Part shown: in pieces, positions 235 to 24,400 of the stretch
Layout of the letters: each line of letters begins with the position of its first letter
How positions within the stretch are numbered: the stretch's first letter is position 1
NCBI RefSeq assembly: GCF_026151205.1
Contig: NC_087073.1
Location: 9,029,411-9,093,410, forward strand
Direction of reading: 5' to 3'
DNA length: 64,000 bases
Source of the DNA: Bolinopsis microptera
Taxonomy: Eukaryota; Ctenophora; Tentaculata; Lobata; Bolinopsidae
The notes under the pieces: generated by a model
What the model saw: the letters and a program-made list of their open reading frames with translations, nothing else
What the model was told of the DNA's origin: nothing
Database searches by the model: none
Translations under genes and position numbers: made by a program

Positions 235-759
235 TTATTCAATATTGCCCTTTTCTGGTTGAATATAATACCCATCACCCAAAACCACAACCTCAGTAAG
301 ACATAGAGGTGCTTTGGTATCCAGCTTTATTTCCACCCTCCTGCCATGAACGATTCCTTCCATAGGGATATGATACCATCCAACGCTTCCCTTCTTGTAC
401 TCTATCGTGTGTATAAGTTGGGAGTCAAGGTATACTTTAGCTTTGTCTATTTTGTTAGCTTGTTCAAGTCGGCTCAGTATATTAATCTCAAATATTCTGT
501 AGCTCTGAGTAAGATCAACATACCACCAAGCTAACGAGCCGTCTACAGAGGGGTCTGTTTGAGTGGTATTACCATTAATAAATCTTGGATCTTCAATTCC
601 ATTGACAGCTCTGTTGGGTTCTCCGTTATCAGCTACCGATGATTGGTAACAAGATCTTCCCACAGCTAGGTCTCGGAGAATAGTGCTTTTCTCACCAGTC
701 CCAAAGACTTCAACTTGGGCCAAGGAGAGAGGTTTACCAGAAGTAAGTAAAACAGATAC
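235..759 (-). CDS. FTP gene exon 6, 3' part: end of FTP domain 3 and FTP domain 4
   Basis: The frame resumes at 754 (755-759 is the second GATAC copy). It reads VLLTSGKPLSLAQVEVFG, then a type B domain with CYQSS, NRAVNGIEDPRFINGN, LAWWYVDL and INILSRLEQANKIDKAKV, and YHIPMEGI, and stops with TAA at 237-235. It is collinear with the second half of exon 4. Bases 16325-16089 plus 754-235 total 757, which with the two carried-over bases gives exactly 253 codons. Confidence 0.85.
   Translation of the reverse strand, partial: VSVLLTSGKPLSLAQVEVFGTGEKSTILRDLAVGRSCYQSSVADNGEPNRAVNGIEDPRFINGNTTQTDPSVDGSLAWWYVDLTQSYRIFEINILSRLEQANKIDKAKVYLDSQLIHTIEYKKGSVGWYHIPMEGIVHGRRVEIKLDTKAPLCLTEVVVLGDGYYIQPEKGNIE
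755..759. other. left target-site duplication GATAC
   Basis: GATAC at 755-759 repeats at 16089-16093, directly abutting both ends of the fold-back element. The duplication could be read as 6 bp (AGATAC) if the terminal A is assigned to the target. It lies within coding sequence of the FTP gene. Confidence 0.8.
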
Positions 760-768
760 TATAATGGC

Positions 769-811
769 GCAGGAGGGTCAACCTGAAAAGAACATTGCTT
801 GACCCTCCTGC
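769..811. repeat. terminal hairpin of the fold-back element, left end
   Basis: GCAGGAGGGTCAA (769-781) is followed after 17 bases by its exact reverse complement (799-811). The stem is 13 bp and starts nine bases in from the element end. The same hairpin occurs at the right end at about 16037-16079. Confidence 0.75.
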
Positions 812-1005
812 CCCACCGCATGGATCAGGAGGTTCATTTCAGAAACAGTGCTTGACCCTCCTGCCCCACCACATGGATCAGGAGGTTCATTTCAGAAAAA
901 ACAGTGCTTGACCCTCCTGCCCCACCACATGGATCAGGAGGTTCATTTCAGAAAAAACAGTGCTTGACCCTCCTGCCCCACCACATGGATTACGGGGGTC
1001 ATTTG
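797..1005 (+). repeat. subterminal 53-56 bp tandem repeats, left end
   Basis: Units start at 797, 850, 906 and 962. Each begins GCTTGACCCTCCTGCCCCAC and, except the last, contains CCTCCTG and CAGGAGG in inverted orientation. The repeats lie directly inside the terminus, where transposase-binding repeats commonly occur in fold-back and MULE-type elements. That role is inferred. Confidence 0.8.
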
Positions 1006-1212
1006 AACCCACAAGACCATGTGCACTTATTTCTACATCGCGCGCGATACGTGTGTGCGTGATTACATGAAATCTTACCGCGCCCTACGCCAAGTAGACG
1101 AAAAGCGTGGTCGAAGAGCGAGAGTCGGTACAATAAATAAAACGAGAGTTGGTACATTTAACTGGCATTTTTTAACCGTGGTACAATCAGAATTGCATAC
1201 AGCCGACACAGG

Positions 1213-1500
1213 ATGAGGGGGGGGGGGGCAATGACTACTGATGGAGACTTTTGAGCACCAATGGGGACGAAAATCATAGGGACTGAAGGTCAAATCGCTG
1301 GTGAAATTTTCCATTTGTCCCCATAAGTACCCAAAGTTTTGGCGAGTTTTATGTAGTTTTGATATTATCTTTTATTAAATGACTTCTAAAGGAGACTTTT
1401 GGGTACCAATGGGGGCTAAAAATCTTGGAGACTTGAGGTTAAATTGCTGGCGAAATTCTGCACTTGTCCCCAAAGTCATTGGCTCCCCCCCCCCTCCCCC
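1213..1500. repeat. nested inverted repeat with G-run / C-run ends (mirror copy at about 15345-15632)
   Basis: A G-run followed by CAATGACT near 1215-1235 is mirrored by AGTCATTG followed by a C-run near 1472-1500. Between them, an 85-bp block is repeated in tandem (about 1244-1326 and 1391-1471, beginning GGAGACTTTTG). The other arm carries the same structure in reverse. It looks like a smaller element that was in the sequence before it was palindromised. Confidence 0.5.
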
Positions 1501-4500
1501 GGGTGAGGTGACGGAGAAAAATAAACTGAGCTCAAGGCTACATTTCCAGATATCCCGCCAGGGCACCGTCGCTCATGCTGCAAAGTGTGTTGAGAGATGC
1601 CCACGTCATCACACGTAAACTGTGTCACGAATACCTGAAATGCAGACGTGCAGAACAAACATAACTCTGATCTATATTTTTCATAAAACTTTCAGGATTT
1701 GCCAATGAGGGAAAAGACAGCACTGTCCGAGAAGCTAGAAATGCATGAATCATAGGTGACATGGATAGGGGTAAGAAGTTTTTAAAAAACATGAAAATTG
1801 TGAAAGGAAAAGAAGTAGAAATGAGAAAGGGTAGATTTAAAATGTTTGAGAATCGATTTTGTGCTGAAGAACTCCGTCCGCAGGACGGGCTTCCGGCTAC
1901 TTATGATAATTCGAATAAATTTGAGATTCAAACAAGCTACGAATACGAATGCTTATAGCAGTGGCAAGCTCGTGGCAAGCTCTTGTTTGCTGCGCATTGG
2001 CTGCAATGTATAACCGCAGTATGAAGTATGAACTGTCAAAATATTTGAATTTGCTTACCTAGTGGCTTTGTTTGATAAAGCATACATACTTTATATACCG
2101 ATAAATCAATAACTCCTTTTGATTCTTCGGTTTGAGAATTGTGCGGTCACACATCTCTGCAATGTCTGAAAAGGTGGCAGGGAAGTATTGAAACTTACTT
2201 AACACTATATTTACAGTTAAACCTTGAACTACTATAACTAGGGCAGTAGGAAACGCCAAAAAGTAGATCATCTGACTAAAACAACTTAACTTCATCCAAG
2301 AGTCTAGTTAGCAGCATTGTAGCGATAAGATACCACCATAGTTTGAGCTGTCGACACTGAAATAAAACAAACAATTTACTTTTCACTACTGCAGGGGAAT
2401 GCATGCAATGTAAGATATAAAGAATAAAGATATAATATATTGTATGTTTTTCATCGTGGCCTCAGGGGAGAAGGGCAGCTCGAAAAACCGAAAAAAGTCT
2501 AAAAAACCGTGTTGGAGCTGGTGAGTTAAAGCTACCGATCTCGATCGTGAGAGTCAGATGATCAGATCGCATGTAACGTGAGTTTCGCCCGCCTGAATAA
2601 GGCAACATGAAATCATATTGCTGGTGACAGGTCTCGACCAAGATGTAAAATAAAGATACCCCAAATTTGTTATTTTTAAGCCGATTCACATCGACCCAAG
2701 TCTCTGCTTTGACCCTAAATGCTCAAACTTCGTTAATAGATTGGAAAATCGTGTTATGCTTGTTACTAATAACTGTTGTTTGTGAGAGGACATCTCGATT
2801 TCCCGGATCAGAGGATCACACCAATGAGGGGTTGATTGTGCATGTGTGAACTTCTTTTCAAATTGCCCGATTTTTTTTCAGTAGGTCACATTACTCGTGA
2901 CGTGCAAATGTATCTTTTGTCTTTTAATAGGTCAAGCTCAGAGCTTTAAAGCTTTAAAGACTTCTCCGTGACAAAGACGGCCGACATATATCTTCACTCC
3001 AGGAAAAGTCAGAACTCTTTCCACACCACATTCTTAAATGTACACGACAGCAGAACGACGATGTAGCCCCACGCCGCAGTAAACTTTAAATTTCTGACCC
3101 GGAACGAGCCCAGCAACTGTAGACAGCTGCGTGAGCTATGTACGGTTAGCAGATTTAAGAGCTTATGCAATAAGCAGTCACCGTTCACTCTCATGTTTGA
3201 CTCTTCTTCTTTTGAACAACAAATGTCCATTGAATGATGCCAAGCTAAGCGATTATGATTAGAAAAGTACCGTGATTTACACTGATGGCTCATACAAGGA
3301 CTTGTTGGACTTCGTGAATTTGGAGGACCTGCAGCTGTAATCAGTATTCAGTACTTCACTACCAGATGTGCGAGGCCGAGGTTTCCGTTTGACAACATTA
3401 CAAGTGGACCACCCAGGCCGGGATGATCACGCGCTAGTTGACATGAGATCTGATTCTCCGGGAAAATTGGGCGAGATGACCGGTGTCCTGTCAGAGGTCA
3501 CGGATACAAGGATACCAAAAATATAAATATTTTATTGTACAATTACAATAGTCGTATAAACTTGACAAATTCGCCTACCATCACGTGACCCTCGTCAACG
3601 AGCAAGTGAAAAATGTGTTCACAGCATTTAATTATACGGTAACTACACCATAGATTGACAAGCTAAGCGTACAGAAAAACGTCCAACTCCGGACTTTAAT
3701 AAAAACTCCGGTATAATAGCGTTTTTGACGGAGCAATTTAATGGCCTGGAGTAGGAAACTTTGTTGACCGGAATAAATTGATCCGAAAGGCGAAAGATAC
3801 ATATGAGAGGCCATCAAAAGATGGTACCAAAATCTCTCTGTGAAAAGTCCTTTTTACTTTTTTAAGCGTCAAAAGTCGGTGCACTTACTTTATCCATCGA
3901 AAAAAGGGCATCCCCTGGTGGCTCGTAAAGTATGCGAATTTTAGCTGTCTAGTAGCCATCTTTCTTGCTCTCTGGCCGTCTAAGAAGAAACATTATATCC
4001 GACTCTATACCCAAATAATCATATTATAAAACAGGATCATACATAGTTAATAGAACTCCATTAAGAAAAACATTCTTAAATACGTAATCTGTGCCTCGTA
4101 CAACAGTTTTCCAAACACTTCCTACAGCTAGCAATATCCCGTTATTTCATTTTAAATCATCAAAATTCTAAGTTCTAAAGTTACTATATTTAAGGTCATC
4201 AACAAAGCCTATTTGATATAAGTTTGTATTTAGGTCTACAACACGCCCTTTAAACTATACCACTACTATTAAACACAAATTTTCTCTTTGTGCTGAAAAA
4301 GTTTAAAGAAGCTTTACAACTTAACTCCAAACTAATGATTCAGTCTGTCTGTGCATTTTGGTTTTTTTTTAAAGTTCGCGTTTCGGTAGCCAGTTCACCC
4401 CACCTGCAAAAAAAAATTTTGGTTTTCCTAATTTTGGGGGCCCTTTTAGGTTCATTTTGTCCAAAAATTTTGGGGTTTTAATAACCTTTTTGTCGTTTTT

Positions 4501-5469
4501 TTAAGCCATTTTTCAAATTTTTTTTTTAAATTTTTTCGCTAGCTTTTTGCAAAATTTTTCGTTTTGGGGAAATTTTTAAAAGACGGTCACTTACTACTCA
4601 ATTTTAATGCATCAAAATTTTCCCTTTAAAACAGCGAGCGCTTTAAAAAATTTACGATCTTAAACGTTAAATAATTTTTCATGATTGCTTGCGAAATTTT
4701 TTTCCCCTTTAATTTTAATTTCCCCCTGAATTGTTTAAAAAAAAATTTTAGGCATTGTTTGATTTAAATTTTATGGAATAAGTTTTTTTTTCCCTGGGAA
4801 GGGAATTTGGCGGATTTGTAAAACACCAAAAATTGGTTTATGTAAAGGGTTTTTTCTTTTTTTTTTCAAGTTTCGGGGGCGCAGGAAATTGAACAATTAA
4901 TAAATTTTAAACTCCCCAAACTTTTAAGGCAAACCAACGGAAAAACCTCGTCATCTTTGGGAAAATTTCCTTCATTGACACACCTTTGGGGTTTAAAAAT
5001 TTGTTTTTTAAAAATAGGAAAACTAATTGGTTGTTCCTAGCGAATGTTATTTATACGTTAAAAAACAGGTCAGCGGGGAATATTCAAGTAAGGTCTTTGG
5101 GGCTTTCTTTTACAACGGGAAACAAGGAATTGAAATTTTAATTGAAACTAAAATGACGGGGTTTAATCTAAAAAACTTGTGCTACGTGTCACTCCTTTTC
5201 CTGAAAAAAAGCCCATTTTTTCCAAATTAAAAAAATGAGTATAAGATTGTTTTTAACCGTGTTAAAAATGTGTCAAAAAGTGTCCAAATTAAAATAAATA
5301 CCATAAAAAAATCTATTACATTTTTGGGAAAAATTTAGTATGAAACGGTGGAGGTTCTTTAAGCGGGCCATTCCAGTCCAACCCTGGAAATGACATACAG
5401 GATTTGTTTTACCTTGTTGCATGAAAGCACTAATATCACCAAATGCATCAACATTAAGAGTCAACCTGG

Positions 5470-5640
5470 ACGTGTACTACGGACTGAACAAGACTATTTC
5501 CTCTAAATGTTCCTACTGTTTCAAATTATAGTAAAACTGAGAGAAGCTTTAGTTACTGTGGACCCTTTGTTTGGAATCAGCTTCCTTTGCAATTTGAGAA
5601 CATTAACCGATATCGTCTTGTTTAAAAGAGAATAAATACG
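5470..5640 (+). pseudogene. CR1-like LINE ORF2 C-terminal fragment (left arm)
   Basis: Reads NVPTVSNYSKTERSFSYCGP followed by FVWNQLP. This is the RSFSYxGPxxWNxLP block typical of the C-terminus of CR1/Jockey-group LINE polymerases. It is short and broken on both sides. The mirror copy is on the minus strand at about 11455-11620. Confidence 0.55.
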
Positions 5641-7235
5641 CATCTCTTTGGAAAAAGCATTCATATAAGTAGCATATAATAACTTTCTCATAAACCCAAA
5701 CTTCATAAAAATAAGTTCTAATGACATATTCATGAGTCGCTTTAGATGGCTTGAACTGAATCTTTACTTAGCTGTCATTTGTTTAGTGCTCAGTGTCAAC
5801 AAGAATTTGTCATTATATTCTTCCCTGTGATAATATTCAATTTCAAGTCAATATATCATAGTTATTGAATTGCCTATATATATCCTGAAGTTAGGACTAT
5901 GATTTGACCTGCCCCATCCCCAAATTTTTGGGAAAGTTTTATGCCCCTTTTCGTGAAAAGAGGAAATTTAAATGAAGGCTTTTTTTTTATTCTGATTATC
6001 CGCTTTAAAAACATTATCAGGCCCGTTTCCTTTTTAAAGCCCAATTAAAAAAAAGAATGTAAATTTGTTTAGAGAAAAAAAAATTTAGGTCGAAAATTTT
6101 GATCCTTCCCCCCCCCCCCCCCCCTCGGGCCCTTATTTCATTAAACCCAAAAACCCCTGATTTTGAAGTTAACAGGCGGGAACACCCTAGCTGTCCAGCA
6201 TTGGGGGGTTTAACGGAAACGTGTTTTAGCTCTAGGTCACAGGCTGGACGTAGCTTGTGCCCTTGTCCAAAGTTCTGCGTTTCAGGTAACATCAGGAAAA
6301 AGAATAAGTTAAAGTTGAATGTGTTATGATGGGCCCCCGGAGGGGAAAGTCAGGTTATAATAATAACACCTTGAATTTTTAATGTACTTATATTAATATC
6401 TAAAAGAATCCTCTTCGAATATTTTCTGTGACAAGTGGATCTGAATCTTTGATTAGAGTTGGTGGTTACTGTCTGGTGACATTACACACTCACTTTATCT
6501 TCCCTCTTGGTCCAAGGGATGTTTTTAAGAAGGGCATTAATAACTTCCCTTACTGACATACGCATACTTACAACAAACTAGCTGCATTGCTTTGGACTTG
6601 TCAGTAGGAATGCCTGGAAGATCGGTTACCCAACTGTCTACTTGAATGACCAACCCAAAAAATAGGAAGAGATCAAGAGGCAGGTCTATAGGAAGAGCTT
6701 AAATGTAGTAGAAATGTTACCTACCCTCGAAGATGTATAAGTAAAGTAATAAAAAAGTCGCGCAGACTAATCTTTTTGGCATGGAGATCTCGCTAGAGTA
6801 ACATGTTACTTGTATTGGTTCAATCAATAACATATAACAATTAAAGAGTTAAGAGTCCAACTAGGAATTTAACACAAAATATATATTTAAATTCATTCAC
6901 TGCAACAAATCACTCCATAAATCATGTAGGAGTATTTGATTAAGACTTGAGTTCCAGATCACCTATATATTGTTGGTAAAAAATCCCCCCCTTTTTAAAA
7001 ACCCCTAAAAAAAAATAAAATGTCATGGGTAAGGATATTTTTTGTAGGTAGTTTTTGAAAAACAGAGTGTACCAGGCCGTTTTTGTTTTTAGAATCAAAA
7101 ACAAAAAGTAAAACCTAATCAAATGTGAGAGGATGAAGCAAAGTTGAAAAAAAACAAAGAGCCCCAGAAGGTTAAACTGGTTGCTTACAATTCCCCCATT
7201 TTGTTTGTGAGAATTATAAGGGTCTAAAGGCCATG

Positions 7236-8000
7236 AGTGTAAAGGGCCACTATGGTTTTTAAAGATTTTAATAAACCCTTTGACAGGTAATAAAGGTTTG
7301 TTTTTAAAAAGCCAGCCATGCTTTTTGAAGCCTCGAGTGCCGGGTTCAACACACTGGGAAGGGGGCGGAAAAGGCGGATGGTTTATGGGCGCGCACAATA
7401 GGCGTAAAGCCCCTTAAGTAAAAGTAAGTTTTTAAGAACAAAAGCAAATGGTATACCAGAATGGGATTACAGGGGTCTTCGAAGTCCTGGTAGGATCAGG
7501 ATTCGGGGTACTGCAAAGAGACACCTCATACTTGTTCATCATCGTGATTGACTATCTCATGACAGTGGCTATAGATGATGACTCAGACTCTGGGTTCCTC
7601 TTAAGACTGCACAGGGTGTAGATGGATTTGTGCTGAAAAATATCGCATATGTCAAATTCTCAGATGATGGTGCATATCACTGATATAATTGAATGGGGCA
7701 AAACTACTCTGGACAGGCTATAGGAAGCAGCAAAAAGTGTGGGTTAGTCTTGAACAACCTCTTCAAACCCATCTCATGACTCTAAACACTACAGAGGAAA
7801 GTAGACTTTAAAGCTGTTCTGGAACACCTGCTGGAAAACGTACCTTGGGGGCATAGATATCAACAACTGAGAGAGACTTTAGAGAGACTTTTCAAGAGCA
7901 ACTATGAAGATACAAGAGCGTAGGATGCAACTAGCTTTGCCATATACACTGGCACCTGAACTAGTTGCTAAGTGTGGGGTACTTAATGAACCTAACCATG
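7236..8000 (+). pseudogene. degenerate non-LTR reverse transcriptase fragment (left arm)
   Basis: Pieces of an RT palm appear in shifting frames, including GIPE and an SDDG-type catalytic block. There are many frameshifts, about 130 extra bases near 7300-7430, and about 70 missing bases near 7465 relative to the mirror copy. It differs from the LINE at 21-26 kb. Confidence 0.45.
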
Positions 8001-8832
8001 GGTGCTGAGCAGGGGTAGAACAGTCATAACTTTATGTTGATAGCCTAAGGGCTGATCGGGATTTGCGTAACACTGGAGAAAATCACGGGACTTATGGAGG
8101 ATAGAAATCTATCGAGACAGTGCATCAATACTCGGCGTGAAGCCTAAATTAAGAGAAGTTTAAAGTTCACAATCATAATATTATTTAAAATTGCCTCTAA
8201 TAGCTACTGATAATCAGCTTGATAGAGTCTTCCCGCCAGTTTATCAGAAATAAATAAAATGCAGAACCTAACAAAAGGACTAAAATGATCCAAGATACTA
8301 TATTTCATGAAAATTACTGAATTTGCATTGGCGCTCGATTCAAAAGAATTTTAGTAATGATGCGTTGACAAAATGCGCGGCGCGCAAAAATTATCATTGC
8401 AAATTGTTTGTTGTTAAACAAATTCATAAAATAATCTGTAATAATATAGTTCTAATAGTGTATAAAAAAGAATAATCTCAAAATATAACCACTAAACAGA
8501 GCAAACACGAGGATCGCGCAAAAACTTCTATCTATTTTGACATTTTCCGCGATTTTAAATAGGAACCATTTAAAATATGTAAACCAAATACGCAAAACAT
8601 TAAAATCTTGATCCATAAATTTTTACTTGTAGAGTCCCCGGTCAATAGTTTGCAAAAATAATTTTATATACGAAAATATAAAGAATTTAAAAAACTTTAT
8701 GGATCAATAAATTAACGGTTTGCGTATTTTGTTAATTATACAATATGTATAAAACAAGGTTCTGTTCAAAATCCCGGAAAATTGTCAAAATAGATATGAT
8801 TTTTGCGCGATCCTCGTTTTTGCTCTGTTCTA

Positions 8833-8910
8833 TTACTGGGCGCGCTCAGCCTGTCATTCCGGCCTAATCTCTAATGTTTACCCAACATAAAGCCTGGGGT
8901 CCTCAGGTAA
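8833..8910 (+). mobile_element. MITE family A copy, inserted only in the right arm
   Basis: TTACTGGGCGCGCTCAG at one end and CCTCAGGTAA at the other. It is flanked by TCTGTTCTA on the left and TCTGTTTA on the right; the left arm has the empty site with a single TCTGTTTA. Related copies lie at 27199-27425 and 27591-27670, and a diverged reverse copy near 19571-19645. The 8-bp duplication suggests a hAT-like non-autonomous element. Confidence 0.7.
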
Positions 8911-9389
8911 TCTGTTTAGTGTTTTATATTGAGATTATTCTTTTTATTCACACTATTAGAACTATATATTACAGATTATTTTATGAAATATGTTTGAACA
9001 ACAAACAAATTTCAAATGATAATTTTTGCGCGCCGCGCATTCTGTCAACGCAATCATTAACAAAAATCCATTGGAATCGAGAGCCAATGCAATTTAGTAA
9101 TTTTCATGAAATATATCTTGGAGTTATTTTTAGTCCTTTTGTTAGGTTCTGCATTTTTATTTATTTCTGAATAAACTGGCTGGAAGACGACTCTCAAGCT
9201 GGATACTCAGTCGCTATTAGAGGCAATTTTAAATAATAATTATGATTGTGAACTTTTAAACTTCTCTTAATTAGGCTTCAGCGTCCGAGTATTGATGCAC
9301 TGTCTCGATAGATTCTATCCTCCATACGTCCCCGTGATTTCTCCAGTGTTACTCAAAACCCGTATCAGCCCTTAGGCTACAACATAAGT

Positions 9390-10330
9390 TATGGACTGTT
9401 CTTCCCCTGCTCAGCACACCATGGTTAGGTTTCATTAAGTAACCCACACTTAGCAACTAGTTCAAGGTGCCAGGTATATGGCACAGTAGTTGCATTCCTA
9501 CGCTCTTGGATCTTCATAGTTGCTCTTGAAAAGTCTCTTAAAGTCTTTATCAGTTGTTGAAATCTATGCCCCAAAGGTACGTTTTCAGCTGGTTTCCAGA
9601 ACAGCTTTAAAGTCTACTTTCCTCTATAGTGTTTAGAGTTCATGAGATTTGTTTTAGAGTTGTTCAAGACTAACCCACCACTTTTTGCTGCTTCCTATAG
9701 CCTGGTCCAGGAGTAGTTTTGCCCCATTCAATTATATCAGTGATAAGGGCACCATCATCTGAGAATTTGACATATGCGCTATTTTCAGCACAAATCCTTC
9801 TACACCCTGTGCAGGCTTCAGAGAGAACCCAGAGTCTGAGTATCATCTATAGCCACTGTCATGATATAGTCAATCACGATGATGAACAAGTATGAGGTGT
9901 CTCTTTGCAGTACTCCCGAATCCTGATCCTACCAGGACTTCGAAGACCCCTGTAATACCATCCTGCAGTTGTGATTACTTACAGCCACTGTGTTTGTGTA
10001 GATCAATCGCACTATGTATTCTGGTATACCATTTGCTTTAAGATCTTAATAAGCAAACCTTTATGTACACTGTCAAGGCTTTATTAAAATCTATAAACAC
10101 ATAGTGGCCCTTCACACTCTTTAGACCCTATATAACTTCCTTCACAGAACAAGAATGTGCGAAGTTGTAGAGCAACCAGGTCTGAAGCCCATTCTGGTTG
10201 TCTCTTCGTTTTTCCTTCAAGTCTTGGCTTCATCTGCTCAGCATTTTGATTAGGTTTTACTTTTTTTTTTGTTTCTAAAAAAGACGTGGGGCCCTTTGGG
10301 AGCATCGTTTGCATAAAATCCCATAATGTA
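9390..10330 (-). pseudogene. degenerate non-LTR reverse transcriptase fragment (right arm)
   Basis: The better preserved mirror copy. Broken frames give VFIDFNKAL (palm motif A region), ANGIPEYIVRLIYTN, LFIIVIDYIMTVAIDD and YVKFSDDGALITDIIEW. The last is the position of the catalytic xxDD box, here SDD preceded by F. Stops and frameshifts separate the pieces. Since both arms carry it, the fragment was present before the palindrome formed. Confidence 0.5.
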
Positions 10331-11454
10331 TCATTTCCATGACATGTATAGTTTCTTTTAGGGGTTTAGAGGGTCGGATTTTAGGACCCAAAACAAATGG
10401 TGTTGGAACTCAATTATCAATACTCCCACGTTTTATGGAGTGATTGTTGCGGAAAAAATTTAATATTATTTGTGTTAAATTTCCTTTTTGGACTCTTTAA
10501 ATCTTTAATTTTATGTTTTGGTTGAAAGTAAAAATGTTATTAGCGAGATCCCCTAAAAAGTTTTCTGGCGAGCTGTTTTATTATTTCTTTTTCTTTCGGA
10601 GGGGGGGTCATTTTTTACTACATTTAGTTTCCCTTGACCGTCTGATTTTTATTTTGGGGGGTATTCAAATAATTTCCCCGTCTTGCCCCCCGGGGGTCCC
10701 TATAGACATTCAATTTCTTTTTTATTTCTTTAATTTTTTTCATTTATGAGTTACCTGTTAAATCGCAGCAAGGAGGGACAATGGACATCAAGACTACTGT
10801 CACAGCCTGGTGACCTAGAGCTAAATGAGCTCCTGTTTCCTGTGTAGACCTCCCAGATGTGGACAGGCTAGGATGTTCCTCGCCTTGTGAGTAACTTCAA
10901 GAATCAGGTGTTATGGATTTAATGAAATAAGGCCAGAGGGGGGCGGGGGGGGGGGGGGGGGAAGGATCAAAATTTTCCGATCTAAATTTTATTTCTCTAA
11001 ACAAATTCACATTTCATTATTCAATTGGTGTCTTAATTATGGATATACTGGACCTGATAATGTGATGTAAGATGACGTGATAATACGGGAATAACATGAA
11101 GCCTTCATTCAATTAACCTCATTTTACGATAGGAGCATATAACTTCCAAAATTAGGGGATGGGCAGGTCAAATCATAGTCCTAACTTCAGGATATATATA
11201 GGCATTCAATAACTATGATATATTGACTTGAAATTGAATATTATCACAGGGACAATATAATGACAATTCTTGTTGACACTGAGCACTAAAGTAAGACAGC
11301 TAAGTAAAGATTCAGTTCAAGCCATCTAAAGGGACTCATGAATATGTGCATTAGAACTTATTTTTATGAAGTTTGGGTTTTATGAGAAAGTATTATATGC
11401 TACTTATATGACTGCTTTTTTAAGAGATGCGTATTTATCTCTTTTTTGAACAAG

Positions 11455-11675
11455 ACGATATCGGTTAATGTTCTCAATTGCTAAGGAAGCTGATTCCAAA
11501 CAAAGGGTCCACAGTAACTAAAGCTTCTCTCAGTTTTACTATAATTTGAAACAGTAGGAACATTTAGGAGGAAAATAGTCTTGTTAGTCCGTAGTAGTAC
11601 ACGTACAGGTTGACTCTTAATGTTGATGCATTTGGTGATATAAATTTGGAGTACGTTGTTGACACATTTGAACAC
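11455..11675 (-). pseudogene. CR1-like LINE ORF2 C-terminal fragment (right arm)
   Basis: Mirror of the left-arm fragment. It contains ERSFSYCGPFVWNQLP, preceded by YITKCINIKSQPVRVLLRT in an open stretch of about 64 codons. It is a captured fossil, not a functional gene. Confidence 0.55.
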
Positions 11676-14600
11676 GGTTTAGAGCAATCTTATACTCTAT
11701 TTGTTGTCCTTATTGGAAGAAAATGGGCTTTTTTCAGGAATGGAGTGGACACTGTGAGCACAATGTTATGTTATGATTACCCTTGTCAGTTTTAGTTTAC
11801 AATGATATTTCAATTCCTTGTTTCTGTTGTAAAAAAAAGCCCAAAAGCCTTTTTGAATATTCCGCGACATGTTTTAACGTTTATAAAAAATCGTTTTTTG
11901 TAGGATACAACCAGATTGTTTTCCATTTTAAAAAAATTTAAAGTTAACAAAGAGTTGTGCAAATGTATTGAACTCCCAAAAAAAGTGCAGAGGTTAAGTC
12001 GTTGGTTTTGTCATAAATGTTTTTGGCGTAAATTTTTTATTTAATTTTTCTAATTCTCGTTGCAGTGCCCCCAATTTGAAAAAAAGTAAATAATTTAAAA
12101 ACCAAATTTCTGGTGTTTTTAATCCGCCGAAATTCCCCTTTCCCCGGAAAGAAAATCTATTTAACCATAAATTTGCAAAATTTCCTAAAAATTTTTTGTT
12201 TAAAAAAAAATTTTTTTGGGAGGATTATTTTAAAGGGGATAAAATTTCGCGAGCATTCTGGGGTTTGATTAAGAATTTATTTTCGGGAATTTAACAAATC
12301 GCTCTGGTTTATAGGTAAAAGTTGTGTGTAGTAATTGATTTGTAAGTTTTCGTCTTTAATAATTTCCCCGATCGAAAAATTTTTAGTCAAAAAAGCTAGC
12401 TGAATAAATTTTAAAAAATTAAATGTTTAAAAAAAGGGCTTAAAATACGAATAATTTGTTGTTGGAAAAATTAACAAAAATTTTGACCTTTTTTATGGTA
12501 ACCCTAATTTTTTATGGGAACCAAAATTATTGTGAACCAAATTTTTTCAGGTTTGGGGGGTGAACATGGGTACCGAAAGTGCGAACTTTTGAAAAAAAAA
12601 ATCAAAAGCGGGACAGAAGAAACATTGTTTGAGTTAAGTTGTAAAGCTTCTTTTTAAAATTTTTTTCCCCAAAAAAGAATTTGTTTAAATGTGTGGTAAA
12701 TTTAAAGGGGGTTGGTGACCCAAAACAAACTTTCAATATGTTTTGGGGTGACTTAATATAGAAAAGAACTTAGAAATTTGAGTGATTTAAAGAAATAAGG
12801 GAATTGAGCTGTAGGGGAAATGTTGGAAAAGTTGTACTAGGCCAAGATTACGTAGTTAAGATGTTTTCTAATGGAGTTCTATTAACTATGTATGATCCTG
12901 TTTTATAATAAGATTATTTGTATAGAGTCGTATATAATGTTTCTTCTTAGACTGCCAGAGAGCACAGAAGATGGCTACTAGACAGCTAAATCGATACTTT
13001 ACGAGCCACCAGGGGATGCCTTTTTACGATGGATAAAGTAAGTGCACCGACTTTTGACGCTTAAAAAAGTAAAAAGGACTTTTGCACAGAGATATTTGGT
13101 ACCATCTTATGATGGCCTCTCATATGTATCTTTCGCCTTTCGGATCAATTTATTCGGTCAACAAAGTTTCCTACTCCAGGCCATTAAATTGCTCCGTCAA
13201 ACGCTATTATACGGAGTTTTAATATAGTCCGGAGTTGGACGTTTTTCTGTACGCTTAGCTTGTCAATCTATGTGTGTAGTTACCGTAATAATATAACTGC
13301 TGTGAACACATTTTTCACTTGCTCGTTGACGAGGGTCACGTGATGGTAGGCGAATTTGTAAAGTTTATAGACTATTGTAATTGTACAATAAATATTTATA
13401 TTTTTGTATCCTTTGTCTTCCGTGACCTCTGACAGGACACCGGTCATCTCGCCCAATTTTCCCGGGAGAATCAGATCTCATGTCAACTAGCGCGTGATAT
13501 CCCGGCTGGGTGGTCCACTTGTAATGTTGTTCAAACGGAAACCTCGGCCTCGCACATCTGGTAGTGAAGTACTGAATACTGATTACAGCTGCAGGTCTCC
13601 AATTCACGACGTCCAACAAGTCCCTTGTATGAGCCATCAGTGTAAATCACGGTACTTTTCTAATCATAATCGCTAGCTTGGCATCATTCAATGGACATTT
13701 GTTGTTCAAAAGAAGAAGAGTCAATACATGAGAGTGAACGGTGAACTGCTTATTGCATAAGCTCTTAAATCTGCAAACCGTACATAGCTCCGCAGCTGTC
13801 TACTGTTGCTGGGCTCGTTCCGGGTCAGAAATTTACAGTTTACTGCGGCGTGGGGCTACCTCGTCGTTCTGTGTCGTGTACATTAAGAATGTGGTGTGGA
13901 AAGAGTTCTGACTTTTCCTGGAGTGAAGATATTATGTCGGCCGTCTTTGTCCGGGAGAACTTTTTAAAACTTTAAAGCTTGGCTTGACTATTAAAAAACA
14001 AAGATAATTTGCCGTAGGTATGTGACCCCCAGAAAAAAAAACGGGCATTTGAAAGAATTTTCACAAGCCAAAAAAACCCCCATTGGTGTGTCCTTGACCC
14101 GGGAATGGTGTCCTCTCCAAAAAACCCGGATTGTAAAAAACATACACGATTTTCAATTATACGAAAGTTGGCTTTAGGGTCAAAGCGGGGCTTGGGGCGT
14201 GTGAATCGGCCCAAAAAAAAAAATTTGGGGTATCTTTATTTTCATTTTGGTCGAGACCGTACCCGCAAAATGTTTCTGTTGCTTATTCAGGCGGGCGAAA
14301 AATCAGAAGCGCATATCGGGTTCACGATCGAGATGGTGCTTTTAATACCAGTCCACTGGTTTTTTCTTTTTTCGGTTTTTCGAGGCCTCCCCTGAGGCCC
14401 GATGAAAAAAAACAAAAATTATTCTTTATTCTTTATATGTTAAAGGATTCCCCTGCAGTAGTGAAAAGTAAATTGTTTGTTTTATTTCAGTGTCGACAGC
14501 TCAAACTATGGTGGTATCTTATCGCTACAATGCTGCTAACTAGGACTCTTGGATGAAGGTTAAGTTGTTTTAGTCCGATGATCTACTTTATGGCGTTTCC

Positions 14601-15842
14601 CTACTGCCCTAGTTATAGTAGTCAAGGTTTAACAAGTAAATATAGTGTTAAGTAAGTTTCAATATTTCCCTGCCACCTTTTCAGACATAGCAGAGATGTG
14701 TGACCGCACAATTCTCAAACCGAAGAATCAAAAGGAGTTATGATTTTCGGTATATAAAGTATGTATGCTTTATCAAACAAAGCACTAGGTAAGCAAATTC
14801 AAATATTTTGACAGTTATACTGCGGTTAACATTGCAGCAATGCGCAGCAAACAAGAGCTTGCCACGAGCTTGACCACTGCTATAAAGCATTCGTATTCGT
14901 AGTTGTCTTGAATCCTCAAATTTATTCGAATTATCATAAGTAGCCGGAAGCGTCCAGCGGACGGAGTTCTTCAGCACAAAATCGATTATCAAACATTTTA
15001 AATCTACCCTTTCTCATTTCTTACTTCTTTTCCTTTCACAATTTTCATGTTTTTTAAAACTTCTTTCCCCCTATCCATGTAACCTATGATTCATGCATTT
15101 CTAGCTTCTCGGACAGTGTGTCTTTTCCCCTCGTGGCAATCCTGAAAGTTTTATGAAAAATATAGATCAGAGTTATGTTTGTTCTGCACGTCTGCATTTC
15201 AGGTATTCGTGACACAGTTTAGTGAGATGACGTGGGCATCTCTCAACACCACTTTTGCAGCATGAGCGACGGTGCCCTGGCGGGAATCTGGAAATGTAGC
15301 TTGAGCTCAGTTAATTTTCTCCGTACCTCACCCGGGGGAGGGGGGGGGGGGGCCCAATGACTTTGGGTACTTTGGGGACAAGTGCAGAATTTCGCCCAGC
15401 AATTTAACCTCAAGTCTCAAGATTTTTAGCCCCCCATTGGTACCCAAAAGTCTCCTTTAGATGTCATTTAATAAAGATAATATCCAAAACTACATCAAAC
15501 TCGCCCAAAACTTTGGGTACTTATGGGGGACAAATGGAAAACTTTCCACCAGCGATTTGACCTTCAGTCCCTATGATTTTCGTCCCCATGGTGACTCAAA
15601 GTCTCATCAGTAGTCATTGCCCCCCCCCCCTCATCCTGTGTCGGCTGTATGCAATTTGATTGTACCACGGTTAAAAAATGCCAGTTAAATGTACCAACCT
15701 CTCGTTTTATTTATTGTACCGACTCTCGCTCTTCGACCACGCTTATCGTCTACTTGGCGTAGGGCGCGGTAAGATTTCATGTAATCACGCACACCACGTA
15801 TCGCGCGCGATGTAGAAATAAGTGCACATGGCTTGTGGGTAT

Positions 15843-16052
15843 CAAATGACCCCCGTAATCCATGTGGTGGGGCAGGAGGGTCAAGCACTGTTTTTTCTGA
15901 AATGAACCTCCTGATCCATGTGGTGGGGCAGGAGGGTCAAGCACTGTTTTTTCTGAAATGAACCTCCTGATCCATGTGGTGGGGCAGGAGGGTCAAGCAC
16001 TGTTTCTGAAATGAACCTCCTGATCCATGCGGTGGGGCAGGAGGGTCAAGCA
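15843..16052 (-). repeat. subterminal 53-56 bp tandem repeats, right end
   Basis: Mirror image of the left array, with three full units plus a partial one in the same order from the terminus inwards. Unit number is conserved between the arms, which suggests the two arms were copied as one unit. Confidence 0.8.
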
Positions 16053-16088
16053 ATGTTCTTTTCAGGTTGACCCTCCTGCGCCATTATA

Positions 16089-16093
16089 GATAC
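16089..16093. other. right target-site duplication GATAC
   Basis: Second copy of the 5-bp duplication, directly outside the right terminus GCGCCATTATA. Confidence 0.8.
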
Positions 16094-16325
16094 AGTTGAA
16101 GCACTGTAATCATCTGTAAGAAATTCGTAGACTTGCTTGCCTTTTTCATATTGGATTGTTCTTACGACTTTCTTTCCCAAAAGAATGGCAGCATTATTAA
16201 TCCTATCAGCACACTCTACTCTATTGTATATCTTTACTGATCTTATTTTGTAAAAATCCTCAAGATCACAATGCCACCAAGCCCACGATTTATCTCTCCC
16301 AGGATCAGTATGAGTAACCCCTTTA
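16089..16325 (-). CDS. FTP gene exon 6, 5' part: FTP domain 3 up to the insertion
   Basis: The exon starts after acceptor TTCTTTCAG and encodes KGVTHTDPGRDKSWAWWHC, then IYNRVECADRINNAAILLGK and YEFLTDDYSASTVS. At that point it runs into the fold-back element. The last exon bases before the element are the GATAC target duplication (16089-16093). Any reading past this point enters element sequence and stops. Confidence 0.8.
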
Positions 16326-16470
16326 CTGAAAGAACATTGGGTCAACATTTGTACAAAATAGTCACAGTAAGACTACAGAAGAGGATATCTAAGTTTGAGA
16401 ATGTGAATTACCTAATAATATTGTACTAGATTATAATATAGTACAGAAGTAGTGACTACTTATTAAATAC

Positions 16471-16579: not shown

Positions 16580-16793
16580 CTGAAAGAAAAAAATGTGAAA
16601 AGACATATTTTTGAATTTTGAGCTTGTTGCATTTGGACACAAAGGGAAACACAATATGAGGCTTGAATTCATTATGAATTTTTTTATTAAAACGGAGCTT
16701 GTTAACGCTCCTGCCTTCAATAATCAGAGAATGAGAAAGAGATCTTGCATTCAAATAACATAAATTATACTTGAATTTGGTATATATTTTCAC

Positions 16794-17527
16794 CTGGTTC
16801 AGTGGTACAATCACTCATAACAACCACCTCACTCAGACTAAGTGGTTCTCCAGTATTCAACTTGATTTCTACTTTCTTGCCATACCTAACTCCTTTTACT
16901 GGTATGTGATACCACAACAATCCAGGTTTGTATTCGATTGTATGGATAAGATAAGAATCAATGAACACTTCTGCTTTGTTTATCCTCTTAGAACATTCCA
17001 GACGGTTCAATAAGTTGATTTCATGTATTCTAAACCGTTTATCCAACACCACATTCCACCATGCTGACTTCTCCTTCTTATTATCATTATGAGTTGTATG
17101 CCCAGAGATATACCTTGGATCTTCAATCCCATCAACAGCCCTGTTTGGATCACCACCATGCAAATGTGAAATTGAAGATTGGAAGCAAGGCTGTTTTTTA
17201 GCAACATTATACAGTGGATGAATTTGCATGCTGTTGCCCCAAACTTCCACTTGTGCCAATGAAAGAGGCTTTCCTGTCGTCAATATCACTGTTACACAGT
17301 TTGCAGGATAGTTGTCAGCAAAAAACTCATAGAGTTGTTGTCCTTGGTTATAACGAATAGTTCCAATTACTTTTTTCCCTAACAGAATTGAAGCACCATC
17401 TATTCTTTCAGAACATTCAACTCTATTGTAAATTCTTACGGAGTTGACCTTATACCAACCATCCAAATCACAACTCCACCATGCCCAACCCTCATCAACT
17501 TTCGGATCAGTATGTGTGACACCATTC
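16794..17527 (-). CDS. FTP gene exon 4: rest of FTP domain 1 and all of FTP domain 2
   Basis: A 734-nt exon, acceptor TTTCACCAG and donor GTGAAA, open throughout. The first part completes domain 1: NGVTHTDP, AWWSCDL, RIYNRVECSERIDGASI, then a C-terminal strand ending SLAQVEVWG. The second part is a different FTP subtype (B): NRAVDGIEDPRYISGHTTH, SAWWNVVL, INLLNRLECSKRINKAEV and YHIPVKGV, ending LSLSEVVVMSD. The conserved Trp pair and the YNRVEC / LNRLEC segments sit where FTP domains place core and ligand-loop residues. Confidence 0.85.
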
Positions 17528-18068
17528 CTGGTGAAATTATGACATCAAGTTTAGAAAACCTACAAACTTCAGAAGTTAAAATCTGTTCGATACCAATACT
17601 ATTTATTCAGCAGGTTTAAAAGTAAATGTGGTACAATAAAATACTATACAGCGGGATTTGGGAGAAAAGTAAAAGCTGTGTTAAATCTGTGTCGGCAGTA
17701 AATCAGGGTTTTGATTGTTAAAATTTATATGTTAATTCCTAATTTGGGGGAAATCAGAGATTGCTGTAAATTGGGATTGCAGTAAATGAGAATTGCGGTA
17801 AATAGGTGATTGCGGTAAATCGGGGGCGGTTAATCTGGGTTTGGATGTACTCGATACTGATTTCATCGAATCATAATATCTCAAAAAGGCTTGTAAAAAT
17901 GTCCAAAGAGCTCAGGAGAACGAAGTAGAAATGCTCTTTGATAAACTAGCAGGTACTAATAGGTTTGCCTTAATAGTACAGTACAAATCAAGAAAGAAAA
18001 CTACAAATTCAGTGGAATCTGACTGTTCCAGGTTGGTTAAGGTGACGAAGAAGATAAATTTAGCTTAC

Positions 18069-19645: not shown

Positions 19646-19647
19646 AA

Positions 19648-20012
19648 CCCAGCAATCCTTACTGGCTAGCGATATTACTACAGGGTGATCGCCTTTTCAC
19701 AGCTTGTTGAACTCCGCGCGCGCTCGCTAGTTCATTGCATTTGCACGCTTCAAATATTCCAAGAATGCAATTGTACCGCGTACCACGTGATACGATTCAG
19801 CCAATCAGAGAACAACAATCTGCAAAGTTAAAGCTACGCAGTTTTATAAGGCCTAAAATATGACTTTTCGTGATAATTCAAAATCTACGTTGTTTTCAAT
19901 TTCCCCCCTGGGGGGAAACGTTATTTTTGCGAAACGAACATTTTGCAAAAAACCGGAAGACGCTATCTCTTTTACTTTCAAAGTTAGGCTCCAGCCAGTA
20001 AGGTTTCCTGGG
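19648..20012. mobile_element. 365-bp TIR element, copy 1
   Basis: It begins CCCAGCAATCCTTACTGGCT. The reverse complement of its end is CCCAGGAAACCTTACTGGCT, giving 18 of 20 matching terminal bases. Copy 2 lies 831 bases downstream and differs at one position (AGCTTG versus AGCATG). The element includes CACGTG, CCAAT and a TATA-like TTTTATAAGG in promoter-like order near 19783-19850. No coding capacity. No clear target duplication, so the superfamily is open. Confidence 0.65.
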
Positions 20013-20477: not shown

Positions 20478-20843
20478 ACCCAGCAATCCTTACTGGCTAG
20501 CGATATTACTACAGGGTGATCGCCTTTTCACAGCATGTTGAACTCCGCGCGCGCTCGCTAGTTCATTGCATTTGCACGCTTCAAATATTCCAAGAATGCA
20601 ATTGTACCGCGTACCACGTGATACGATTCAGCCAATCAGAGAACAACAATCTGCAAAGTTAAAGCTACGCAGTTTTATAAGGCCTAAAATATGACTTTTC
20701 GTGATAATTCAAAATCTACGTTGTTTTCAATTTCCCCCCTGGGGGGAAACGTTATTTTTGCGAAACGAACATTTTGCAAAAAACCGGAAGACGCTATCTC
20801 TTTTACTTTCAAAGTTAGGCTCCAGCCAGTAAGGTTTCCTGGG
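20478..20843. mobile_element. 365-bp TIR element, copy 2
   Basis: Same sequence as copy 1 apart from one base. Its right end lies about 60 bases before the first LINE ORF1 codons. The flanking bases do not show a matching duplication. LTR status is unlikely because the ends are inverted and there is no primer-binding site or polypurine tract between the copies. Confidence 0.65.
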
Positions 20844-20905: not shown

Positions 20906-21403
20906 CATCAAACTCCATCTGACATCAAACAAGTGTTCAATAAATTTACTAGTAAAATTGCTGAAATTCAAGCTGTCAATAAAAAAACTAATGTTTATAT
21001 ATGTCCGCTGCTGCCAACTAAATGTATTGATTTAAATAGAAGAGTCAATTTCTTTAACTATCTGATTCAAACCCAGCTTCTCCCTTTCAACTTTGGTGTG
21101 AGACTGGTAGAAGGGTTTCCAAGCTTTGCTGATGAGAACGGGCTATTAAGCCAACACTTGTCAAAAAGGTTGACGAAGTTCCAGAAACCTGATTACTTAC
21201 ACCTCAATTGGAGGGGGGTTGCAAAATTAGCAGCAATCATTAAAAATACTATTCTTCTTAGAGTTAATGGTGGTCGAGACAGACGCAGAGCTGGACGAGG
21301 GGGGAATCAGGTGGACTCCACATCATTTCGTGACATAACTGCACGCTCTCTTCCTGCTGATAAACGAGTATCTGGTGCTCCTGACGGCTACCAACCGTCA
21401 TGA
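20906..21403 (+). CDS. LINE ORF1, truncated: SGNH/GDSL-type esterase C-terminal part
   Basis: Open from just after a stop at 20903 to TGA at 21401-21403, about 165 residues. It contains YICPLLPTK, LNRRVNFFNYLI, FADENGLLSQHL and DYLHLNWRGVAKLAAIIKN. The last matches the Asp-x-x-His block that closes SGNH hydrolases (D and H of the catalytic triad), as in CR1 ORF1 esterases. The N-terminal Ser block is missing, so this copy is not a complete enzyme. A basic Gly/Arg-rich tail (GGRDRRRAGRGGN) follows. Its TGA overlaps the ATG of ORF2. Confidence 0.65.
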   Translation, partial: HQTPSDIKQVFNKFTSKIAEIQAVNKKTNVYICPLLPTKCIDLNRRVNFFNYLIQTQLLPFNFGVRLVEGFPSFADENGLLSQHLSKRLTKFQKPDYLHLNWRGVAKLAAIIKNTILLRVNGGRDRRRAGRGGNQVDSTSFRDITARSLPADKRVSGAPDGYQPS

Positions 21404-24400
21404 CTACTCTAACTAAAGAGGTATGTAAACACTGCTGCAAGGGTATCTATGTGGGCCAAGCCATAGTCGAGTGTTCCGAATGTAACCATGCAACTCATCA
21501 TAAATGCTACAATATTGTCAATACCGATTTATGCGGTAACTTTCTCTGCAATACATGTGTAAATCTTGCTGTAAAACGATACAACCCGTTCAAATATGAT
21601 ATTTCCGACGAAGAAATCGATCTAGACGATACGATAACTAAGCTCTCGCAAATTTTAAACAGTTGTTCTCAGCTTAACAGAAGTCAAATTAATCAAACTC
21701 TAGAAACTTTAACCGAAGGTCAAATGTCAATGATGTTTCAAAACATAGACGGTAACAAAAGTAACTTTGATACTATGTGTATAGATCTTCGCCGATATAA
21801 CAAAAAGTTTTCCATAATTGCACTTGCTGAAACAAATGTAGGACCTGAATTAAGTAGTTTGTATCAATTAACCGAATACAATAGTTTTTACCAAGCAACC
21901 TTTCGAGAGAAAAAGAAGGGCACCGGAGTTGCAATTTATATCCACCAGTCACTAAATGCAACAATCGATAATACCCTCTCCTATGTGAGTGAAAACCTAG
22001 AAATCCTATTTTTAAGATTCAACAGTGGTAACTCAAGCACCTTTGTTGGAGTTTTATACCGCCCTCCGAGTGGCAATTTTGACTTAGCGCTAAGTGAACT
22101 AGCCGACACTCTGGACAAAGTCCCCAGACACTCGTATATAGCTGGTGACTTTAACATCAATCTTCACGGCGACAGCAACAAGGTTGCTAAATATGAACAC
22201 GTTCTTTACAGTCGAGGCTTCTATCCTCTCATATCTGTAATGACCCATGAAAAACCCGGCTGTATTCCTTCATGCATCGATAACATCATTACCAATGATT
22301 TAGACAACATTATAACATCTGGCACATTCAAAGACAAAATCACACATCATCACCCCATATTCTTAGCACTCAACACACACCTTGACCAGAACGATTGCAA
22401 GATTAAGTATGAACAGTTTTATGACTACTGTAACTCTAACGTAGATAAGTTCACCGACAAACTATCCAATAGTCTTGATAACACTGTAATAAATTGTTTT
22501 GATACCTTTGCTGACACATTTAACGTTGCTTTTGACGAATGTTTCAAGTTAGAAACCCCGAAATGTACAAAACGCACTATGCAAAACAATCCATGGATTA
22601 CACCAGCAATTATAACATCAATAAATCACTGTCACGAACTATACGAAAACTGGGTCAAAGCTCGCAAAGTCAAGTGCAATCTAGGAGATACTGACACAAA
22701 AGGTGGCTTCTGTCACTGCGCAGTATGTAACAAAAAGCGCAGTGAGTACTTAACTTATAAATATTATAGAAAAGAACTCAAAGTTATACGTGAAAAGGCT
22801 CAAACTTCGTACAATATGGGTAAATTTAATGAAGTTCAAGGTGACAGTAAGAAAACATGGCAACTAATCAATAAGATACGCGGCAAAGGGAAACGAGAAA
22901 TTAAACCCCCGTTTGTTATTAATAATGAGAAAATAATGAACCGTAGAATTATAGCTAACGAATTTAATAATTACTTTGTATCTCTTGCCCCTAAGTTGAA
23001 TGAATCATACAGTACAACCGGTCAAATTAGACTAAGTCCAATTCAATGCTTTACGGACTACTTACCAAGACCAAATACCTCAAGTATATTTCTCAGCGAT
23101 TGTACACCAGAAGAAATAGAGAAAATCATTAGCGAACTCAAGAATGGAAAAGCTAGTGACATCCCTATTCACGTCATCAAACGAACGTCTAAGATTATAA
23201 GCCCACTCCTGTCAGTATTATTTAATGAACACATGAGAAATGGAACTTTTCCAGACCGACTGAAAATTGGTAAAATTAGCCCTATATACAAAAAAGACGG
23301 TACAGAATATCTCGAAAACTATAGGCCAGTATCTACCCTAGCTGTGTTCGGAAAGTTATTTGAGAAAGTAATCTACTCCCGTTTGTACAGTTTTCTTGTG
23401 TCGCAGAACGTTTTGTTTGAGAACCAGTTTGGTTTTAGGAAGAGTCACTCAACTAACCACGCCCTTAATTACTCAGTTGACTATGTAAACTCCCATATAA
23501 AGGAAAAGCAACATGTATTAGGTATCTTTATTGACTTATCAAAGGCATTTGACACTATCAGTCACGATAAACTTCTCATAAAACTTGACAAATATGGTAT
23601 AAGAGGTAACGCAAACGAGCTTATTGGAAGTTACCTATCTAACAGACAGCAGTACGTTTCAGTTTTAGGTGAGGAATCTGATAAACTCCCTGTTATTTGT
23701 GGAGTACCACAAGGTAGTGTTTTAGGACCGCTACTGTTTATAATTTACATAAACGATATCTATAACTCATCAGACCTAGGAAAATTTATACTTTTCGCTG
23801 ATGACACCAATATATTTGTAGTCGATAAATCTGTCCAGAATCTCTACCAAAAAGCTAATACTATAATGAACTCTGTTTACAATTATATGAAATGCAATCT
23901 TCTCCACATTAACATCAAGAAATGCTGTTACATTCACTTTACACCAGGAAAGAAGGATGTAACTAGTAGTAGTAGTAATAGTAATGATCTTATTTTAACG
24001 TTGAATAACACAGTCATTAAACGTGTTGATGAAACTAAATTCCTCGGCGTTATTATAGATAAAAACCTTAACTGGAAACCTCATACTGCATATCTTAGTT
24101 CTAAATTAAAGTGTGAAGTCGGTAAACTCTGCCGTATGAGAAGATTTATACCTAAAGAGCTGTATAATGACCTCTACCACACCCTCTTCGAATCTCATCT
24201 AGGATATGGGATCTCAGTGTGGGGAGGCATATCGAACAATAGGCTTGAACCAATATTTAAAATTCAAAAAAAGTGCACTCGTATTCTATTTGGTGATCAA
24301 GAGGCATACAGTAATAAGTTCAAAACATGTGCTAGAACCCGCCCAATTGGATCCCAAAAACTTGGAGCCGACTTCTATAAACGAGAATCAAGTAAACCCC

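Follow-up and report, generated by a model that had tools for sequence, protein, structure and literature searches.

We describe a giant fold-back (palindromic) element that interrupts a lectin-type exon in the genome of the ctenophore Bolinopsis microptera. The element occupies positions 760–16088 of a stretch of 64,000 nucleotides of contig NC_087073.1 (forward strand, 9,029,411 to 9,093,410, assembly GCF_026151205.1), referred to hereafter as the window. It is very probably one copy of a family of non-autonomous fold-back DNA transposons whose arms convert each other. The element is a member of a family and not a single insertion, and variants within that family sort by copy in the distal part of the arms and by side near the spacer.

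Anatomy of the insertion

Comparison of the region with itself by BLASTN, together with joining of the flanks, delimits an element of 15,329 bp with facing termini, bordered by two copies of the target site duplication (TSD) GATAC that were read from the flanks at 755–759 and 16089–16093 (neither the element nor its duplications being assigned a strand). Alignment with other copies resolves the element into a left arm of 7,869 bp (760–8628, plus strand), an AT-rich spacer core of 56 bp (8629–8684, minus strand) and a right arm of 7,404 bp (8685–16088, minus strand); under the spacer-based orientation used below, the left arm is the “R” arm and the right arm the “L” arm. The two halves pair over most of the arm length at 76–91% identity, with E-values of 1e-62 to 0 that lie far beyond chance (759–5290 with 16089–11643 at 86.8%, 5433–6294 with 11641–10747 at 86.3%, 6700–7307 with 10626–10046 at 75.7%, and 7457–8500 with 9965–8911 at 91.1%). 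The original prediction, made from the letters of the window, of a 15.3-kb fold-back element with two arms of more than 7 kb, almost no spacer and a GATAC duplication is thus borne out.

A terminus search located the terminal motif TATAATGGCGCAGGAGGGTCAA at 760–781 (plus strand) and 16067–16088 (minus strand); the termini can also be written as TATAATGGCGC. Four 56-bp subterminal tandem repeats lie just inside the left end (785–1004, plus strand), with a matching array at the right end (15844–16063, minus strand). The core of the terminus, GCAGGAGGGTCAA, recurs in inverted orientation within the 56-bp array near each end, in the left array as four exact copies of TTGACCCTCCTGC at 799–976, and the arrays are possible transposase-binding sites. 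Short terminal repeats had also been predicted: the shared ends are real, but they are not just 11 bp long, the arms themselves being terminal repeats of nearly whole length.

The insertion is clean with respect to the coding sequence, as had been proposed. Removal of the element and one GATAC joins the downstream part of the exon (238–759, minus strand) to the upstream part (16094–16372, minus strand, stop to stop) in a single open minus-strand frame of 267 codons, counted from stop to stop. By eye, the frame restored across the junction resembles a neighboring uninterrupted exon at 16765–17544, which scores above the cutoff for PF22633 (galactose-binding, F5/8 type C-like). In the interrupted exon, the downstream half scores below the cutoffs of both PF00754 and PF22633. 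It is on these two grounds that we label the exon lectin-type, FTP being the name used in the original prediction.

A dispersed family of giant palindromes

The possibility of a unique element was rejected on searching the genome (264.65 Mb in 232 contigs; copies are named here by contig, e.g., C1 or C12), which holds many copies. A search with the 22-base terminal motif, allowing up to three mismatches, returned 50 matches, against 0 and 1 for a reversed-pattern control. More than half of these (28) resolve into 14 facing pairs, the window copy included, with ends ~15–32 kb apart; six lie inside another repeat with constant flanks, and 16 were assigned to neither group. Perfect 5-bp TSDs flank nine of the 13 pairs checked (GATAC, GTTAC, CATAG, GTCTT, GTAAG, CTGTT, GTAGC, ATTGT, and CAAAC), the 14th pair (C12) standing outside this count. 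The search for further copies with the same termini, which had been suggested as a check, therefore supports the earlier proposal that the giant fold-back moved as a unit. We infer from these sequence features that the element is mobile, and the family is best read as young.

Nine further copies were fetched, and inverted arms are present in each of them, though incompletely in E20, the center of which is lost. Arms of 7.4–12.8 kb surround a spacer of ~56 bp in nine of the ten copies read, E20 being the tenth, and the spacer core of the window copy recurs identically in six of the eight other copies in which a spacer was detected. Matches to arm probes fall mostly into inverted pairs, among the matches listed. 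A coding center in the longer copies was considered and rejected: inner probes face each other only 119–165 bp apart in the copies on C12, at C6:12.38 Mb and at C7:13.26 Mb, and the extra length would therefore lie in the arms.

Two further observations concern the surroundings of family sequences. A second repeat with a (GTCGGGGTTT)n array (L029, L034, L041, L051, and L054, on C1, C1, C3, C6, and C7, respectively) holds ~370 bp of a fold-back end, in which the 22-base terminus is intact and the sequence beyond it is 80–91% identical. The E2 copy (C3:421557–443988) is adjoined by repeats of ~39 bp on both sides, which suggests a tandem-repeat target.

Probable homogenization of the arms and its limit beside the spacer

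To compare arms, nine copies were oriented by their spacer and the resulting 18 arms aligned, with identity counted at ungapped columns; E20 was left out because its spacer is lost. Five copies form a clean set (E2, E5, E12, E13, and E7b) and three are noisy (E18, E14, and E19), E18 having initially been placed in the clean set and then removed for misaligned or noisy columns. Within the clean copies, the arms are 99.65–100% identical over the outer 6 kb, 98.95–99.95% between 6.0 and 7.7 kb, and 94.7–96.1% over the 440 bp adjoining the spacer, this tip being the lowest of the three zones in all five. The gradient is exemplified by E12 (5411 of 5411 distal columns identical, then 99.2%, then 94.7% near the spacer). 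Arms of the noisy copies agree at 95.7–97.3% distally and 93.9–94.7% at the tip.

The simple expectation that the two arms of one copy would invariably resemble each other more than they resemble those of other copies was discarded, many arms being 99–100% alike across copies, and for this reason we turned to a test of column patterns. Clustered columns were filtered before permutation (67 reduced to 47, and 102 to 67); E1 was kept out of both permutation sets, and E14, E18, and E19 entered only the eight-copy set. Over the outer 6 kb of the five clean copies (22 informative columns), within-copy agreement between arms is 1.00, versus 0.52 between copies, a value reached by one of the 120 possible pairings, namely the true one. 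Same-copy agreement declines to 0.70 in the 6.0–7.7 kb zone (8 of 120 permutations), and in the inner 440 bp (15 columns) the relationship is reversed, arms of the same side agreeing across copies at 0.73 versus 0.53 for arms of the same copy. The sorting by copy and not by side that characterizes an arm-to-arm converting palindrome is hence found in the distal 6 kb and not in the last 440 bp.

Larger variants point the same way. Insertions private to one copy yet present in both of its arms occur in E2 (about 300, 1080, and 240 bp) and in E19 (500 bp), and an insertion of ~1.47 kb occupies a single arm in the C5 copy and both arms in the copy at C6:19.97 Mb, at 99.96–100% identity. A side-specific segment of 280 bp is confined to the R arm in seven of nine copies, present in both arms of E2 and absent from both arms of E7b. 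As to the inserted sequences themselves, the ~1.47-kb insertion encodes a FLYWCH zinc finger (7.5e-9; L059 880–1767, minus strand), is bounded by a direct repeat of 40 bp (more than one expects of a target duplication) and, judging from split probe matches, probably also sits in a third copy at C6:2.14 Mb; the 1.08-kb insertion in both arms of E2 has inverted termini of its own (GCCTCACAGAATGGC), as a smaller transposon inserted into the palindrome would.

Distal sorting by copy and symmetric insertions are together the signature of arm-to-arm gene conversion, and conversion that rarely reaches the tip appears the simplest account of the data, its direction and trigger being matters of inference. 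In the scheme we favor, a transposase supplied in trans would recognize TATAATGGCGCAGGAGGGTCAA and the inverted cores of the 56-bp arrays and move the whole palindrome; one arm would convert the other, such that changes (even kilobase insertions) are copied across, a copying that the variant patterns described above show and for which conversion is the proposed mechanism. The innermost ~0.4 kb beside the spacer would rarely be converted, and it keeps left/right differences common to several copies. That these inner differences are common to several copies suggests copying as a full palindrome, not rebuilding from one arm.

Several observations weigh against this interpretation of a converting, non-autonomous transposon family. 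No transposase or autonomous partner turned up, a negative that has no completed hAT or P transposase search behind it. Four of the 13 pairs checked lack a perfect TSD (C4:11.10, C2:14.53, C9:8.81, and C5:12.69 Mb), and a by-eye comparison among these for exchanged TSDs gave no match. The distal contrast is smaller in the eight-copy set that includes the noisy copies (0.94 vs. 0.70, equaled in 0 of 3000 sampled permutations), and the clean set was picked after the noisy arms were known. Several insertions are confined to one arm, and some of the pattern could also be produced by conversion from one copy to another. In this single genome assembly, polishing across near-identical arms could inflate identity at single bases; symmetric insertions of kilobase size are hardly explained in this way. 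Finally, the loci at C1:12.86–12.88 and C9:2.09–2.10 Mb show one arm on one strand only, among the matches listed; these could be half elements or truncated copies. Such loci, along with the near-perfect arm identity of some copies, are what would be expected were each palindrome formed anew from a single-arm precursor through hairpin-type inverted duplication. We consider this origin very improbable: the spacer is common to nine of the ten copies read and side-specific inner variants are common to several copies, from which it follows that most copies descend from one existing palindrome.

The gradient also bears on when conversion takes place. Homogenization might be coupled to transposition itself, a transposase-made break at an end being resected and repaired from the opposite arm, so that every round of mobilization would rewrite one arm inward from its end. 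The drop in identity toward the spacer, the concentration of side-specific variants beside it and the presence of some insertions in both arms are all consistent with such repair, but general mitotic or meiotic gene conversion excluded near a hairpin tip would give an identical gradient, and one-arm insertions persist in several copies; we hold the coupling to be rather unlikely. A broader and tentative idea, which we would not presently back, is that the transposon serves as its own repair template, its arms overwriting one another (perhaps whenever an end is cut) and the ~0.4-kb tip alone escaping. Were this so, damage and foreign insertions in one arm would be erased or copied into both, the tip would preserve the palindrome's real age and handedness, and the persistence of so large an element, intact and mobile though without genes, would be explained.

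The window copy departs from the clean copies in its low arm identity of about 87%. Relative to clean arms it has many clustered differences that resemble paired one-base insertions and deletions: over stretches strictly aligned to the L arm of E12 (E12L), we counted 633 substitutions, with a transition fraction of 0.29, and 369 one-base indels, or 0.58 for each substitution, compared with 0.07–0.21 one-base indels per substitution and 0.35–0.44 transitions in three clean arms, and with 26 substitutions and 0 one-base indels in a control repeat. At its left end about 2 kb are clean, and at its right end the final few hundred bases. The ~13% divergence is not taken at face value because this pattern points largely to poor base quality; it looks mostly like uncorrected long-read base error, of which part may be real divergence. 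Against this, the window copy has 79 private alleles present in both arms where 9.25 would be expected by coincidence (only five of the 79 are isolated, with no other difference within five columns), and it may therefore also be a distinct lineage. That the whole divergence reflects real age, in an old copy whose arms escaped conversion, draws on this excess and on a similar pattern of differences in possibly old pieces at C11:12.034–12.045 Mb, but the indel and transition ratios, the indel-free control repeat and the clean ends all speak against it, and we regard it as unlikely.

The C11 pieces (C11:12033900–12044800; L063 and L064) are two adjacent inverted pairs of the fold-back center at 85–90% identity, interpretable as an old double element or as an error of assembly accompanied by base errors; correspondingly, either they are noisy as well or old copies in this genome look so. 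They are among the observations that would fit a more radical explanation, in which assembly or reads (fold-back chimeric reads, collapsed polishing) produced the palindrome or its arm identity as an artifact, as would the noise-like differences in the window copy and in one arm each of E14 and E19. Nanopore base accuracy is reported to fall in long inverted duplications (PMC7229812). A chimeric read would have placed an inverted left flank on the right, but the flanks of the element differ on the two sides, and perfect TSDs at nine of 13 pairs, recovery of the reading frame and the recurrence of the termini at 14 loci leave an artifactual origin exceedingly improbable. A practical caution follows for assemblies of long palindromes, in which arm divergence can be base error.

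Coding content and comparison with known elements

The family appears to be largely devoid of coding capacity. The longest open reading frame (ORF, stop to stop) inside the window copy spans 157 amino acids, copies E12, E13, and E19 contain no ORF of at least 150 amino acids, and a coding giant transposon was rejected on the latter grounds; Rfam and tRNA scans gave no match. Long ORFs in E5, E7b, and E20 resemble inserted reverse transcriptases. Those of E20 and E7b weakly match (1.7e-7 and 7.7e-6) a long interspersed nuclear element (LINE) of the window, and that of E5 does not match it. Two arm ORFs of 130 and 92 amino acids had the look of tails of non-long-terminal-repeat (non-LTR) retrotransposons, an assignment that we do not claim, as they matched nothing in Pfam at an E-value of 1 and showed no match to the window LINE. 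The LINE itself is an uninterrupted non-LTR retrotransposon ORF of 1,121 amino acids with reverse transcriptase and endonuclease domains (21385–24750, plus strand; Pfam RVT_1 1.7e-36, Exo_endo_phos 1.7e-6) that was possibly active recently; a direct repeat of 366 bp (19647–20012 and 20478–20843, 99.7% identical) lies about 0.5 kb upstream of it. Elsewhere in the window, a low-complexity repeat array at 46943–47539 has all three forward frames open.

Long inverted arms, tandem subrepeats, TSDs and dispersed copies give the family the structure of a fold-back (FB-like) element. The original prediction had left its superfamily unnamed, and rightly so. No transposase is linked to the termini. Polinton/Maverick giant transposons have a 6-bp target duplication and carry polymerase, integrase, and capsid genes; this assignment was rejected, the present family having 5-bp TSDs and no ORF of at least 150 amino acids in E12 or E13 (no polymerase search was made). 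The hAT5 group of hAT transposons is defined by a 5-bp TSD (Kapitonov and Jurka 2007, as cited in PMC12730594), a likeness that concerns TSD length alone. As a candidate for the unproven mobilizer, hAT5 would fit the 5-bp duplication, while Mutator and P would not.

Fold-back elements are already known, and we met no giant palindromic transposon in the openly licensed literature searched. A family of many copies that combines arms of 7–13 kb and a measured homogenization gradient appears unusual, and it is larger and better replicated than the fold-backs compared here (Galileo, Tetris, and Tm1). The main value of the finding lies in this gradient: a palindrome scattered through the genome in many copies allows direct measurement of arm-to-arm conversion, of how far it extends and of how it fails near the spacer. 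Mammalian sex-chromosome palindromes, the arms of which are kept > 99% identical through arm-to-arm gene conversion (PMC8981503), are alike in that respect; the present family differs in being mobile, as we read it, and dispersed.

Among transposons, Tetris and Tm1 (Mutator-type fold-backs) share the fold-back anatomy, the tandem-repeat arrays in the arms and a majority of non-coding copies. Tetris arms reach at most 1.7 kb, Tm1 arms average 93% identity, and both have TSDs of 8–10 bp versus 5 bp here (PMC4079207, PMC3169594). Closest in behavior is Galileo, a fold-back-like element of the P superfamily in Drosophila, for which two reports (PMC4168063, PMC2775673) describe a TSD of 7 bp (8 bp in three copies), a longest D. 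willistoni copy of 9,021 bp with arms of 4.2–4.7 kb, transposable element insertions transferred between arms, and two copies whose terminal inverted repeats (TIRs) are > 99% identical within a copy and about 7% different between copies. The 5-bp TSDs found here point away from both the Mutator-type fold-backs (8–10 bp) and Galileo (7–8 bp), and the 9,021-bp longest copy of Galileo contrasts with 14 pairs of ends 15–32 kb apart. Galileo nonetheless resembles the present family in its long TIRs, its transposase-less copies and the tandem repeats in the arms of its longest copy, and sets a precedent for insertions passed across arms and for the identity of TIRs within a copy.
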